Assembly: GCF_003315205.1 (NCBI RefSeq)
Contig: NZ_QNRR01000003.1
Location: 1-64,000, forward strand
Reading direction: 5' to 3'
DNA: 64,000 nt
Source of the DNA: Roseimicrobium gellanilyticum
Lineage (GTDB): Bacteria > Verrucomicrobiota > Verrucomicrobiia > Verrucomicrobiales > Verrucomicrobiaceae
Shown here: positions 22,422 through 28,472 of the stretch, one piece after another
How the letters are laid out: each line of letters starts with the position of its first letter
Position numbering within the stretch: position 1 is the stretch's first letter
The notes under the pieces: generated by a model
What the model saw: only the letters and a program-made list of their open reading frames with translations
Told to the model about the DNA's origin: nothing
The model's database searches: none
Program-made: the position numbers and the translations under genes

Positions 22422-23180
22422 TCAGGGAGCCAGCGCGGCCTGCACGGGTCTCACGCCCCAAAGCCGTTGGATTCCTCCCAGACGCCTGAGGAACCGCTCA
22501 CCCGTTTTGAAAGCCATGCCCGCCACCTCCCAAGGCCTCACGCCGAGAGCTGCAAAGCACCGGCGATGGTCCCACGCCACCGCCACTGCGGTGACACGCT
22601 GGATGACTCGGAACTGCCCTCTCCAGAGCCAGCGCCTCCATGCGGGCATGGCACCCAGCCGCTCCCGGAGGAACTCAGTGTGAAATGCAATATGCCGCAT
22701 TTCATCGGACAGGAGCTTGTGGCAGACGCGGCGCAAGGCGGGGTCGTTGCATTTCCGGTAGAGAATGCCGAAGTACACCTCCGCAATCAGTTCTGCGGTG
22801 AGCAGAATCTGGATGTTGAATTCCACACCGAAATGATTGCGCAGCCAGCGGAAGACGGAATTGCTCCACTGCTTCTCAAGGCAGGTCCCGCCAAGATAGT
22901 GCACTGACTTCGCCAGTAGTCGGGCGTGGTATTGCTCCTCTGCGATGAACAGTCCCACGGCCTCCTCATATCCTGCAAGACGGTCCGCACTCACCACCAG
23001 CCTCACATACTTCATGAGCCGCGTCCCTCCCCCACTCTCGCCGAGCTGAAACACCGCGAGTGACTCCCGCAGCGGCAGTGCGATGGCCATCGGCAAAGCA
23101 CAGTCTCCCGCCGGCAGATCCGGCTCGGTGAAGCGGTGCTGATTGGCATGGAAATGCTGGGTCCAAAGATAGGTATTCAT
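22422..23180 (-). CDS. Ferritin-like diiron protein (252 aa)
   Basis: Two iron-binding E-x-x-H helices are visible: FIAEEQYHARLLAKSVHYLGG and LLSDEMRHIAFHTEFLRE, with an additional Glu in LTAELIAEVYFGILY between them. This four-helix arrangement with paired E(D)xxH motifs is that of ferritin-like diiron carboxylate proteins, including N-oxygenases of the AurF kind and fatty-acid oxygenases. The C-terminal 60 residues are Arg- and Trp-rich and could contact a membrane. Its gene follows ispH by 30 bases and is probably in the same transcript, so it may act on, or protect, an isoprenoid or iron-dependent step. No close named relative is recognised, so substrate and reaction remain open. Confidence 0.65.
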   Translation of the reverse strand: MNTYLWTQHFHANQHRFTEPDLPAGDCALPMAIALPLRESLAVFQLGESGGGTRLMKYVRLVVSADRLAGYEEAVGLFIAEEQYHARLLAKSVHYLGGTCLEKQWSNSVFRWLRNHFGVEFNIQILLTAELIAEVYFGILYRKCNDPALRRVCHKLLSDEMRHIAFHTEFLRERLGAMPAWRRWLWRGQFRVIQRVTAVAVAWDHRRCFAALGVRPWEVAGMAFKTGERFLRRLGGIQRLWGVRPVQAALAP

Positions 23181-23210: not shown

Positions 23211-24134
23211 TTATGAGAGTGGGGTCGCGGTTCCCTGCCCAAGGGCGAGCTTCAGCAGTCCGGCCAGTTGACTGCCACTGCCGCTGTTCTGTTCGGCAGC
23301 AATCACCTGCAGGCGATCCATCACCGCGCGCACGGTTTCATCGAGCGTGCTGGTACCCGCGGTCACACCCACGTGCTGGGCCTTCTCAAACCATGCCGGA
23401 TCCAGATCCTCCGCCCGCTCGACTTGATGCGCAATGCAGCCCAAGCGTCTGGCCGACTCCACAAGCTGGCGGGTGTTGTTGCTGTTCCTTCCGCCAATGA
23501 CAACGACTGTGTCGCAATCCGCACAGAGCTCGACCAGCGCGGACTGGCGCTGCTTCGTGGGATTGCAAACGGTATCGACAAAGCGTACCTCCGCACCGGG
23601 ATGGCGACGCTTCAGCGCATCCACCACTTGGAGTACATGGGTGATCGGCTGGGTCGTCTGACTGATGACTCCGAACTTCGGACGGAAGGGCACCTCCGCG
23701 GTCTCCTCTTCCACCAGCAGCACGATGGCCTCGGGGAAATCACCGGTCAGTCCACGCACCTCCACGTGAGATGCTTGTCCAATGACCACCGGGAAGTACC
23801 CCTCACGTACCAAGGCACCGAGAGCATCATGTGCTTTGCGCACCAGCGGACATGTAGTGTCGGTGACGCGATAGCCTGCCCCGACCCAGGCGGCGCGTTG
23901 ATTGTCAGAAGCGCCATGGGCAGTGATCACCACGCCAGGTGTGGGAGCAGAGGGCGTATCGCTCAGGGTTCCGATCTCCACGCCCAAAGTGCGTAGATGG
24001 GAGTCGACCAGAGGATTGTGTACGAGCTGGCCGAGGATGGTCACGGGACCACTTCTGGCAGCCGTGTGGGTGGCGCGCAGGGCGTCGCGGACGCCGAAGC
24101 ACATACCGTGATGTTTGGCGAGTTGGATGGTCAT
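23211..24134 (-). CDS. ispH: 4-hydroxy-3-methylbut-2-enyl diphosphate reductase, IspH/LytB (307 aa)
   Basis: The last enzyme of the MEP isoprenoid pathway makes isopentenyl and dimethylallyl diphosphate. From the chosen ATG (MTIQLAKHHGMCFGV) the three iron-sulfur cysteines are Cys12, Cys95 (TTCPLV) and Cys190 (DTVCNPT). The substrate-binding histidines lie in QLVHNPLV, ITAHGAS and SHVEVRGLTG, with the catalytic Glu125 in the last. GGRNSNNTRQL is the Ser/Asn diphosphate loop. The longer reading frame up to 24194 would begin inside the operator and is unlikely. It is followed by the ferritin-like gene and preceded by an operator palindrome at 24180-24198. Whether it is the only IspH of the organism or a regulated second copy cannot be told. 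Confidence 0.92.
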   Translation of the reverse strand: MTIQLAKHHGMCFGVRDALRATHTAARSGPVTILGQLVHNPLVDSHLRTLGVEIGTLSDTPSAPTPGVVITAHGASDNQRAAWVGAGYRVTDTTCPLVRKAHDALGALVREGYFPVVIGQASHVEVRGLTGDFPEAIVLLVEEETAEVPFRPKFGVISQTTQPITHVLQVVDALKRRHPGAEVRFVDTVCNPTKQRQSALVELCADCDTVVVIGGRNSNNTRQLVESARRLGCIAHQVERAEDLDPAWFEKAQHVGVTAGTSTLDETVRAVMDRLQVIAAEQNSGSGSQLAGLLKLALGQGTATPLS

Positions 24135-24179: not shown

Positions 24180-24198
24180 AACTTTGTGCGACAAAGTT
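24180..24198. promoter_or_regulatory. Operator palindrome AACTTTGT-GCG-ACAAAGTT
   Basis: A perfect 8-3-8 inverted repeat lies 46 bases before the ispH start. The same ACTTTGT-N3-ACAAAGT design recurs at 25240-25256 in front of the membrane protein-regulator operon. The regulator encoded between the two sites is the obvious candidate to bind both. Confidence 0.7.
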
Positions 24199-24223
24199 AA
24201 TGGGCAAAATAAAAGAGGGGGGA

Positions 24224-24532
24224 CTACTTGGGGCGACTTTGCTGCACAATGGCTTCCAGCACCTTCACGTAGGCCCGGAAGGCGCTGTTCCCCGCTCCGG
24301 TGATTTCGTACTGCGTCATGGGCCGGCCGCTGTCGCCTGCCGTGGTCTTCAGCTCACGCACATATCCTTCCTTGGTCAGGGTGCGGAGGTGGGTGATGAG
24401 ATTTCCATCACTCATGGAAAGTTCCGTCTTCAGTTCCTGAAAACTCCACGGGCTGCGGCTCGCGAGCAGGGTCATGATGGAGAGGCGGCTCTTCTCATGA
24501 ATCACGCGATCGAGCTGGGAGAAATCAATCAT
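24224..24532 (-). CDS. Winged-helix transcriptional regulator (102 aa)
   Basis: A small one-domain regulator starting MIDFSQLDRVIHEKSRLSI. The helices SFQELKTELSMSDGNLITHL form the helix-turn-helix and GYVRELKTTAGDSGRPMTQY is the beta-hairpin wing, followed by a C-terminal dimer helix (AFRAYVKVLEAIVQQS). This is the arrangement of the HTH_34/MarR-like winged-helix family, usually autorepressors paired with a membrane protein gene. The start at the ATG is preferred over a TTG one codon earlier. It is 51 bases after the membrane protein gene in the same direction. Two identical palindromes flank the pair of genes and point to autoregulation plus control of ispH. Confidence 0.82.
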   Translation of the reverse strand: MIDFSQLDRVIHEKSRLSIMTLLASRSPWSFQELKTELSMSDGNLITHLRTLTKEGYVRELKTTAGDSGRPMTQYEITGAGNSAFRAYVKVLEAIVQQSRPK

Positions 24533-24586
24533 CAAGTGGAATGGCGAGTGCGTCGGGGACTAAAGGTGACAACAGCGCTCCTGGCA

Positions 24587-25234
24587 TCAGGAATGGCTCG
24601 TGACCAGTTCCTTGGGCTGACTGAGAAACACGGCTACGCCGTACACGATGTGAAACAGGCCGAACGTGCCGCCCATATACAGCGAGGCCACCGCCACGGG
24701 CGGTGAAATCATGTCCGGCCAGCCCTTCCAGAGCCAGAGCACGGTGAGGATCTGCCCTGCAATCAGAAAGGCACGCGCGAGATGGATGATGGAGCGCGGC
24801 GCGAAGCTCACCGTCCCCTGGAGCGCCAAACCATAGCAGAGAATCCAGATGAGCGAAGCCAGCTCCATCTGCTGGCGGAAGACGATGAGGCAGACTCCCA
24901 CCACACCACCCGTAAGCAGCGGGGGCACCACGGCGCGAAGGGCCATGCGGAGTCCATCCGTGATGAAAGGCTGCCCCTTGTCCTGGGATTCACGCATCAG
25001 CAGGAAGAGATTCGCCAGGCCGGACAGACAAAGCACTCCAATCCACGCCGCCAGGAACATTTGGGGGGACGGAGGCATCATCAGCCCCCATGCAGCCACG
25101 CCCAACCCCAGTACACCGCCACAGAGGGCTGCCGTGGCGGACACCGCCCGGTAGATATTCGCCCGCTCCATGAGCGTTCGGATGATGCGGAGATGCTCCA
25201 GTGCCGTGTCGTGAGGTAGGTCGGATGCGGCCAT
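24587..25234 (-). CDS. Multi-span membrane protein (215 aa)
   Basis: About six hydrophobic segments are visible (VLGLGVAAWGLMM, FLAAWIGVLCLSGLANLFLLM, VVPPLLTGGVVGVCLIVF, LIWILCYGLALQG, FLIAGQILTVLWLW, FGLFHIVYGVAVFL). There is no known catalytic motif. The N-terminus (HDTALEHLRIIRTLMERA) is a cytoplasmic amphipathic helix. Membrane proteins of this size are often encoded directly before a small winged-helix regulator in Verrucomicrobia and related groups, and probably act as sensors or transporters in one unit with it. The gene has an operator palindrome 6 bases before its start codon, the likely promoter region of the operon. Confidence 0.75.
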   Translation of the reverse strand: MAASDLPHDTALEHLRIIRTLMERANIYRAVSATAALCGGVLGLGVAAWGLMMPPSPQMFLAAWIGVLCLSGLANLFLLMRESQDKGQPFITDGLRMALRAVVPPLLTGGVVGVCLIVFRQQMELASLIWILCYGLALQGTVSFAPRSIIHLARAFLIAGQILTVLWLWKGWPDMISPPVAVASLYMGGTFGLFHIVYGVAVFLSQPKELVTSHS

Positions 25235-25239
25235 GGTCC

Positions 25240-25256
25240 ACTTTGTATTACAAAGT
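25240..25256. promoter_or_regulatory. Operator palindrome ACTTTGT-ATT-ACAAAGT
   Basis: A perfect 7-3-7 inverted repeat lies 6 bases before the start of the membrane protein gene and matches the palindrome at 24180-24198. Its close position to the start codon suggests that a bound protein blocks transcription or covers the first transcribed bases. Confidence 0.7.
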
Positions 25257-27428: not shown

Positions 27429-28106
27429 TCACGCAGCGACATGCGTCTCCTTGCGAGACAGCACGAAGGCATACGTGATCACCACGAGAGCCCACGTTCC
27501 GAGGGTGGCCAGCAGCGCGATGACATACGGCACCTTCTCCACGCCCAGCGCGACGGCCAGCATGAGCGCAAGGCCCACGGTCACCAGCAGGCGACCACCC
27601 AGGCGGTGTGTCTTCATCCACACGGTTGGTGACTCCAAGGTCCATGGCACACGGATGCCGATGGTGTAGTTTGGCCGGAGCTTGCTCATGCCATTGCCGA
27701 GCACGACGTACAGGAATGGCACCCCATAGTAGACCACCTTCGTGATGGGCGACAGGTCCCCCCAAGCGGCCCAGATCACGGCGACACTCATGCCACCGAA
27801 CAAGACCGTGAGGGCCAGCAACACCTGGCGCAGCACCTTCCCCACGTGTTCACGGGTCTCCGGATCGCACTTCGCCATCTTCGGATCAAAACGAAACCAC
27901 ACCAGCGTGATGGTCACCACCAGGGGACTCGTGAGCGGCAGCAGGAGCGCTCCCCATGGCTTGTTCATCCAGCCATCCGGCGTGAAGGAAGCGTTGAAGT
28001 GAATCGGGATGCGCTCAGGAATCTGCGGCCAGACGGCGGCGAGAAACACGAACGGAGCCGCGAGCGCGAGGAGCAGCAGCCAATTCCTTTTGAGCATCGT
28101 TTTCAT
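27429..28106 (-). CDS. SdpI-family membrane protein (225 aa)
   Basis: An integral membrane protein with about six hydrophobic helices. The N-terminal half carries IPIHFNASFTPDGWMNKPW, the DUF1648 signature, and the second half NYTIGIRVPWTLESPTVW and THRLGGRL, the SdpI signature. In Bacillus subtilis, SdpI gives immunity to the SdpC toxin and controls the ArsR-like repressor SdpR at the membrane. Here too an ArsR-family gene lies directly upstream, overlapping by 92 bases if the chosen start is right (ATG at 28106, MKTMLKRNWLLL). No sdpC-like gene was seen, so it may have a general role as membrane sensor. The stop is 25 bases from the end of galU, which converges on it. Confidence 0.85.
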   Translation of the reverse strand: MKTMLKRNWLLLLALAAPFVFLAAVWPQIPERIPIHFNASFTPDGWMNKPWGALLLPLTSPLVVTITLVWFRFDPKMAKCDPETREHVGKVLRQVLLALTVLFGGMSVAVIWAAWGDLSPITKVVYYGVPFLYVVLGNGMSKLRPNYTIGIRVPWTLESPTVWMKTHRLGGRLLVTVGLALMLAVALGVEKVPYVIALLATLGTWALVVITYAFVLSRKETHVAA

Positions 28107-28443
28107 GGCGTCGTATCTGGGTTGTCTTTGAAGAATCAGAACCTGCCTCCCGGACACCCTTGGCGGGTGATGCAGTGGATGCCGGAGCACCCCTGGTCAG
28201 CGTGAGAATCCAGCGAAGCGCATCCTCCAGCACACTGGTCGAGAGAGAGTAGATGACGAACTGCCCCTGCTTCTCCGAGGTCACCAGCCCGGCGCGCTTC
28301 AGCAGGTCGAGATGATGAGAGACTGTGGGCTTGCCCAGCTTGAAGTGCTCCGCAATCGCGCCGGCGGAAAGGTCACCCTCCCGCAGCAGGTCGAGAATCG
28401 CCCGCCGGGTGTCATCATTCAGCGCCTGGAAGAGAGCAGTCAT
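28015..28443 (-). CDS. ArsR-family repressor, SdpR-like (142 aa)
   Basis: A winged-helix repressor with the ArsR pattern: LFQALNDDTRRAILDLLREG, LSAGAIAEHFKLGKPTVSHHL (recognition helix) and AGLVTSEKQGQFVIYSLS (wing). The metal-binding CVC of the SmtB/ArsR metal sensors is absent, so it senses something else, as SdpR does. The ATG start was preferred to a TTG at 28464 that lies inside the putative operator. The last 50 residues (RGAPASTASPAKGV and a basic tail) look unstructured and overlap the start of the SdpI gene in another frame. Together with SdpI it probably forms an autoregulated operon. Confidence 0.82.
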   Translation of the reverse strand: MTALFQALNDDTRRAILDLLREGDLSAGAIAEHFKLGKPTVSHHLDLLKRAGLVTSEKQGQFVIYSLSTSVLEDALRWILTLTRGAPASTASPAKGVREAGSDSSKTTQIRRHENDAQKELAAAPRARGSVRVSRRRLAADS

Positions 28444-28448
28444 CGCAG

Positions 28449-28472
28449 TTCGATATTTCGACAATCATCGAA
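28449..28472. promoter_or_regulatory. Putative ArsR/SdpR operator TTCGAT-N12-ATCGAA
   Basis: A perfect 6-base inverted repeat spaced by 12 bases begins five bases upstream of the ArsR start codon. The position and dyad fit autorepression by the ArsR protein; the spacing fits the wide operators of this family. Confidence 0.5.

Follow-up and report, generated by a model that had tools for sequence, protein, structure and literature searches.

The 64,000-nucleotide stretch of DNA from Roseimicrobium gellanilyticum that was analysed (the window; positions 1–64,000 of contig NZ_QNRR01000003.1) contains four genes that are read on the minus strand in the order MEM, REG, ispH, and a gene for an AurF-like diiron protein (Table 1). 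The common direction of the four genes had been implied by the original prediction. The diiron gene starts 33 bp past the region of the ispH stop codon. Two exact copies of the palindrome ACTTTGT-N3-ACAAAGT, with the matching arms and spacing that had been predicted, precede MEM (operator A) and ispH (operator B). Operator B is flanked by an a/t pair, which widens its palindrome to positions 24180–24198. On the minus strand, a TTGACC-N17-TACAAA sequence, identified by eye, spans operator A.

Table 1. Positions of the genes and operators of the MEM-REG-ispH locus in the window, and of loci in other genomes that are referred to in the text.
Feature	Position or locus	Strand	Sequence	Description
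MEM, membrane protein gene	24590..25234	minus		six-helix protein without a family match; proposed sensor or anti-repressor
REG, HTH_34 winged-helix regulator gene	24227..24532	minus		102 aa, no cysteine
ispH, accessory short-type	23214..24134	minus		cluster and active-site residues intact (11 of 11 checked)
AurF-like ferritin-fold diiron protein gene	22425..23180	minus		behind ispH
Operator A	25240..25256		ACTTTGTATTACAAAGT	5 bp upstream of the MEM ATG
Operator B	24181..24197		ACTTTGTGCGACAAAGT	gap between REG and ispH, 46 bp upstream of the ispH ATG
Seeming membrane-protein gene	L044:5161-5997 and L046:5233-6069			two operator copies
Cluster-less IspH-like loci	L030, L031, L032, L127, L163, L234, L245, L253, L257, L263

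REG belongs to the HTH_34 family (PF13601), with a score of 68.8 bits against the Pfam gathering cut-off of 27, in agreement with the winged-helix regulator that had been predicted between the two sites. Its nearest relative of known structure is PH1061 (PDB: 1ub9), with an E-value of 1.7e-7. The palindromic form of the sites and the similarity to 1ub9 suggest that REG probably binds DNA as a dimer. Assignments of REG to the SdpR autorepressors (NF033789, 14.2 bits, cut-off 100) and to the SufR iron-sulfur regulators (TIGR02702, 25.2 bits, cut-off 178.8) were rejected, as was cysteine-based iron-sulfur sensing, since the REG of the window contains no cysteine. MEM did not match any of the family profiles searched. 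Its structure was predicted confidently as six helices (pLDDT 91.9), and a search of the PDB with this model gave no usable match (best E-value 0.25); because MEM has no known fold match, the role assigned to it below is a guess. The N-terminal part of MEM contains the motif IRxLME, the residues Ile18, Arg19, and Glu23 of which are invariant in 49 sequences, and similar motifs are present in three plasmid-encoded relatives of MEM.

Within the window, the palindrome has three matches with up to three mismatches, a number that is reached by 11 of 100 shuffled sequences, so that the loose matches are unremarkable and the weight in the window alone rests on the two perfect ones. In the complete genome (7,930,206 bases, 32 contigs), operators A and B are the only sites found with ACTTTGT-N3-ACAAAGT at up to one mismatch, and also the only ones with the degenerate pattern RCTTTGY-N3-RCAAAGY at zero mismatches. 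A reversed control pattern has no site in the same genome. The motif, put forward at the outset as the mark of a local regulon, is thus not scattered: both sites belong to the MEM-REG-ispH locus. The genome counts, together with the reversed-pattern controls, rule out a chance origin of the palindromes.

The exact motif is present in 26 of 142 genomes of relatives, including that of the window, at 34 sites, whereas the reversed control has a single site in one genome. The exact sites are located before MEM or before a REG-linked or IspH-like gene in 28 cases and elsewhere in the remaining six. REG was found (E-value 1e-8) in 25 of the 26 genomes, and the last one, G121, contains a REG remnant. 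This distribution makes it very improbable that the sites are bound by a transcription factor other than REG; co-occurrence differs from binding, but the palindrome also accompanies the MEM-REG pair into other phyla, as described below. Three motif loci (L038, L042, and L192) have no clear target. At another (L040), the motif is followed by an open reading frame of 200 aa with Pfam matches that are all below the cut-offs, and two more (L293 and L298) are probably chance occurrences.

The positions of the sites were compared among 84 distinct loci of relatives in which REG scores above 90 bits; the window itself is not a member of this set. MEM is within reach in 78 of them and ispH in 75. The set includes four HTH_34 paralogs that lack both MEM and ispH (L179–L182) and one locus in which REG has a stop (L177), and leaves out eight of 92 loci in which REG does not exceed 90 bits, namely seven motif loci with no REG or a remnant of it (L033, L035, L038, L040, L042, L044, and L046) and one in which REG has a stop (L178). 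A site with up to two mismatches was found before MEM in 70/78 loci and between REG and ispH in 72/75, so that the motif is kept before the orthologous genes of related genomes, as had been expected, and there are two further sites in the remaining 542,120 bases. Six of the eight loci that failed this test before MEM have the core CTTTG-N5-CAAAG; another is cut by a contig end (L135), and the last has neither (L175). The core is likewise present in two of the three failing REG-ispH gaps and has one change in the third. At L175 (genome G112), no operator precedes the MEM-REG pair, and the 1.2 kb that follow REG contain no ispH.

A second set of 80 named loci, which overlaps the first in that the REG DNA of 54 of them is also in the 84-locus set, gave similar counts. 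The core CTTTG-N5-CAAAG is located before MEM in 74/79 loci and in 70/73 REG-ispH gaps, and occurs seven times elsewhere in 801,633 bases. The five loci without it before MEM comprise one cut by a contig end (L208) and four that lack the core (L246, L255, L258, and L265). No ispH was found within 500 bp in seven of the 80 loci, some for lack of contig, and at least four of the seven have more than 2.5 kb of room. The counts of loci in both sets are not independent, because the relatives share kinship and near-duplicates were kept in. Shared ancestry alone does not explain the motif, since at the single and distal sites before MEM the flanking columns have near-zero information and the motif columns are near the maximum. 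At the proximal sites of tandem pairs, conservation extends to a TTGC element and to the start codon of MEM, and at the REG-ispH sites to a T-run upstream.

An inverted repeat with a three-base loop and, at many REG-ispH sites, a T-run upstream of it could also form hairpins in RNA for attenuation or termination. This is extremely improbable, as among 76 REG-ispH sites the outer pair is formable at 46 and the inner one at 52, and among 110 MEM sites the inner pair is formable at 63; the five core pairs barely vary and thus carry little information on RNA pairing. The placement of the sites before start codons and their tandem arrangement, found in 39 loci with a spacing of 33–35 bp, also argue for DNA sites rather than hairpins.

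The positions of the sites point to repression by REG. Position and conservation alone do not give the sign of regulation, and tandem sites, which are also known for activators, would be compatible with REG recruiting RNA polymerase at both promoters. Activation is nevertheless improbable: the distance of operator A from the MEM start codon is that of a blocking site, the proximal sites of the relatives are located a few bases before MEM and downstream of a TTG-type −35-like element, and the sites would cover the polymerase instead of being situated upstream of it. A −10 element that is clearly conserved or cleanly definable was not found across the order.

The IspH of the window scores 221.4 bits against TIGR00216 (equivalog cut-off 187.85). 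Of the residues checked, 11/11 are present, three of them cluster cysteines and the other eight belonging to the active site, at positions that we take to be those of the E. coli numbering in alignments to solved IspH structures. Operator B precedes ispH, as had been predicted, but it had been missed that this gene is an extra copy: another ispH, which scores 520.4 bits against the long-type family PRK13371 (cut-off 440), is located on contig C13. At least two ispH matches are present in 77 of 81 genomes with REG and in one of 61 without it (Fisher's test, p ~5e-34, uncorrected for relatedness). The four REG genomes with one match are the drafts G037 and G095 (93% and 86% complete), in which it is the short copy beside REG, and G052 and G077, in which REG has a stop codon and the ispH found is the long one. 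Of the genomes without REG, 59 have one ispH, G067 (52% complete) has none, and G121, with the REG remnant, has two. In G121 (L033:5951-7326), the operator, the short ispH, and the diiron gene are kept, but what can still be read of REG is limited to its C-terminal end. Judged from these comparisons, the accessory ispH is tied to REG.

Among the solved IspH structures, that of Aquifex is nearest to the regulated short type. We compared 98 distinct short-type sequences after dropping those shorter than 200 aa and duplicates over the last 180 residues. All eleven residues are present in 85 of them, one has Asp in place of Glu126, two are truncated, and ten are poor in cysteine. In these ten, two or all three of the cluster cysteines are gone, along with most of the other residues, but Glu126 is kept in every one (Table 1). 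Five come from the genome set, all from family f2, and five from named metagenome assemblies. Three f2 sequences scored against TIGR00216 reach 70–94 bits, below the cut-off of 187.85, and the proteins of this branch are IspH-like and not classed as IspH. A site with up to two mismatches is close by in 10/10 of the loci, and eight of the genes adjoin REG; of the others, that of G139 (L030) is located with its sites ~780 kb from REG on the same contig and that of G116 (L031) on another contig. The branch is under constraint, though less than the intact short IspH, as suggested by pairwise dN/dS values of 0.18–0.32 (8 pairs) against 0.06–0.23 (25 pairs), with dS saturated in most pairs. That family f2 retains the operator with an IspH-like protein lacking the iron-sulfur cysteines had also been missed, as had the association of the palindrome with the MEM-REG pair in other phyla (see below). 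The loss of cluster cysteines from ten IspH-like targets is at odds with a control that would serve simply to raise the supply of isoprenoids.

The diiron protein barely passes the gathering cut-off of AurF (PF11583; 31.1 bits, cut-off 29.6). Glu48, Glu82, His85, Glu130, Glu160, and His163 are invariant in 31/31 sequences and are the putative diiron ligands. The predicted structure is ferritin-like and resembles ribonucleotide reductase R2, aldehyde-deformylating oxygenase, and AurF, with a best E-value of 1.9e-3 and none below 1e-3. The gene follows ispH in 41 of the 80 named loci and is missing there in about half. No operator is located directly before it, and its position behind ispH suggests that it may be under the control of REG.

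Outside the order, the exact motif is present in three of 342 genomes of a phylum-wide sample and the reversed control in eight. The motif as a search key is no better than chance there, and a phylum-wide code defined by the exact motif was not supported. Two of the three genomes (G429 and G209) have MEM and REG beside the motif. In G209, MEM, REG, and the site are followed by a DUF4153 gene; in G429, the site is followed by a 113-aa protein with weak similarity to IspH (E-value 6e-8) and then a DUF4153 gene. Other targets occur within the order. G088 has the only full-length creD among the 142 genomes (495.6 bits; the other matches are partial and below 44 bits), with two sites 145–200 bp before it and REG on another contig. 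In G028 and G050, which belong to one genus, two sites are located at the start of a seeming membrane-protein gene without a family match (Table 1). The degenerate pattern has four sites in each of these two genomes against two of the reversed control, so that lone degenerate matches there mean little. The genome of the window contains two adjoining weak partial CreD-like matches (G000:C9:273719-275407), with no operator in that locus (L284).

A REG-like protein was found in 28 plasmid records, eight of which were picked by hand for study. REG was recognized in 8/8 of these loci by the profile built here (53–97 bits), and in three of them, from Bacteroides finegoldii, Persicobacter, and Aureimonas, a relative of MEM is located in front of it (82, 61, and 34 bits, respectively). 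The palindrome is present at all three loci, which belong to other phyla: as an exact copy before MEM-REG-creD at one, before MEM and twice before creD at another, and spanning the start annotated for uppS in Aureimonas. Behind the HTH_34 and MEM genes of the Aureimonas plasmid (L273:3909-7058) are uppS, a gene with a linalool dehydratase/isomerase (Ldi) domain, and a diacylglycerol-kinase gene, which perhaps form an isoprenoid pathway. The palindrome is absent from four of the five plasmid loci that have REG without a MEM relative. In the plasmid of Thermomicrobium roseum, which lacks a MEM relative, it precedes genes for a hypothetical protein, REG, and an ABC transporter. At the Chloroflexota locus among the four without the palindrome, AGTTTGT-GAT-ACAAACT was recognized by eye in its place.

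Taken together, the comparisons make it very probable that REG acts at these operators on the MEM-REG and ispH transcripts. A REG dimer would bind ACTTTGT-N3-ACAAAGT at two promoters, where it would cover the core promoter, repressing its own MEM-REG transcript from operator A and a separate ispH-diiron transcript from operator B. As REG has neither a ligand domain nor a cysteine, the signal most likely enters via MEM, the IRxLME motif of which could tether REG to the membrane and so free both promoters from repression. Within Verrucomicrobiales, the MEM-REG pair would control a short-type IspH beside the long-type housekeeping IspH, in many species with the AurF-like diiron protein behind the regulated gene; elsewhere the pair stands with creD, uppS, or DUF4153 genes. 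Because the targets in other phyla point there, we tentatively propose a demand of the cell envelope or for a lipid carrier as the signal, a suggestion that is somewhat more apt to be wrong than right.

A different signal would be oxygen or redox state, with the operon acting through the same REG-operator mechanism as a switch between IspH classes and the short copy serving under other oxygen conditions. The regulated copy lacks the extra parts of the long PRK13371-type housekeeping copy, and the pairing of two classes fits the class-wise difference in oxygen sensitivity given in a review (PMC11192765). The absence of cysteine from REG, the envelope and polyprenyl genes (creD, uppS) that are targets in other phyla, and the cluster-less branch, which has no cluster in need of protection, make this switch unlikely. 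Returning to envelope or lipid-carrier demand, a wider and rather doubtful extension is that MEM and its HTH_34 partner form a membrane signalling unit, hitherto undescribed and present in several phyla, which uses the fixed code CTTTG-N5-CAAAG to watch the polyprenyl carrier or envelope. Individual lineages would have plugged in creD, DUF4153, uppS with the Ldi-like gene, or ispH, and the f2 protein would be a former IspH without a cluster, perhaps turned into a ligand-binding regulator.

A literature search, in which subscription journals were thinly covered, found no description of this operator, of an operator of an HTH_34 protein, or, for these bacteria, of an ispH regulator. REG resembles the HTH_34 proteins (PF13601; PH1061, PDB: 1ub9) in fold family and length. 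No operator or target of the family was found in the literature, whereas here comparison gives both, the target being the accessory ispH. In the SdpR/SdpI system, a small autorepressor without a ligand domain is paired with a membrane protein and may be sequestered by it. REG and MEM are alike in being a small putative autorepressor without a ligand domain and an adjacent membrane protein; however, the SdpR score of REG falls well short of the cut-off, and no family match was obtained for MEM. By this analogy, the combination of a small autorepressor and a membrane partner is already known as a kind, and the operator, its target, and the cluster-less branch appear to be new. The MEM-REG-creD operons of Bacteroidota plasmids (L274 and L275) have the same palindrome and the gene order MEM-REG-target, but their target is creD in place of ispH. 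The accessory lytB1 in the isotuberculosinol operon of Mycobacterium tuberculosis is a second, functional IspH, and resembles the accessory ispH in belonging to a special-purpose operon beside another copy; its neighbours are terpene genes, and the accessible text of the report mentions no dedicated membrane-regulator pair (PMC3470408).

HTH_34 regulators are widespread, and the palindrome provides a testable operator that can be compared across phyla for a family in which we found none described. The locus is a candidate for a dedicated switch of the last step of the MEP pathway. It also offers a natural series from intact accessory IspH to IspH-like proteins without the iron-sulfur residues, with the control seemingly unchanged. 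A second pair of a repressor and a membrane protein is located ~3 kb from MEM-REG: an SdpR-type autorepressor gene (28018–28464, minus strand; NF033789, 119 bits, cut-off 100) overlaps a probable membrane-protein gene (27432–28190, minus strand).
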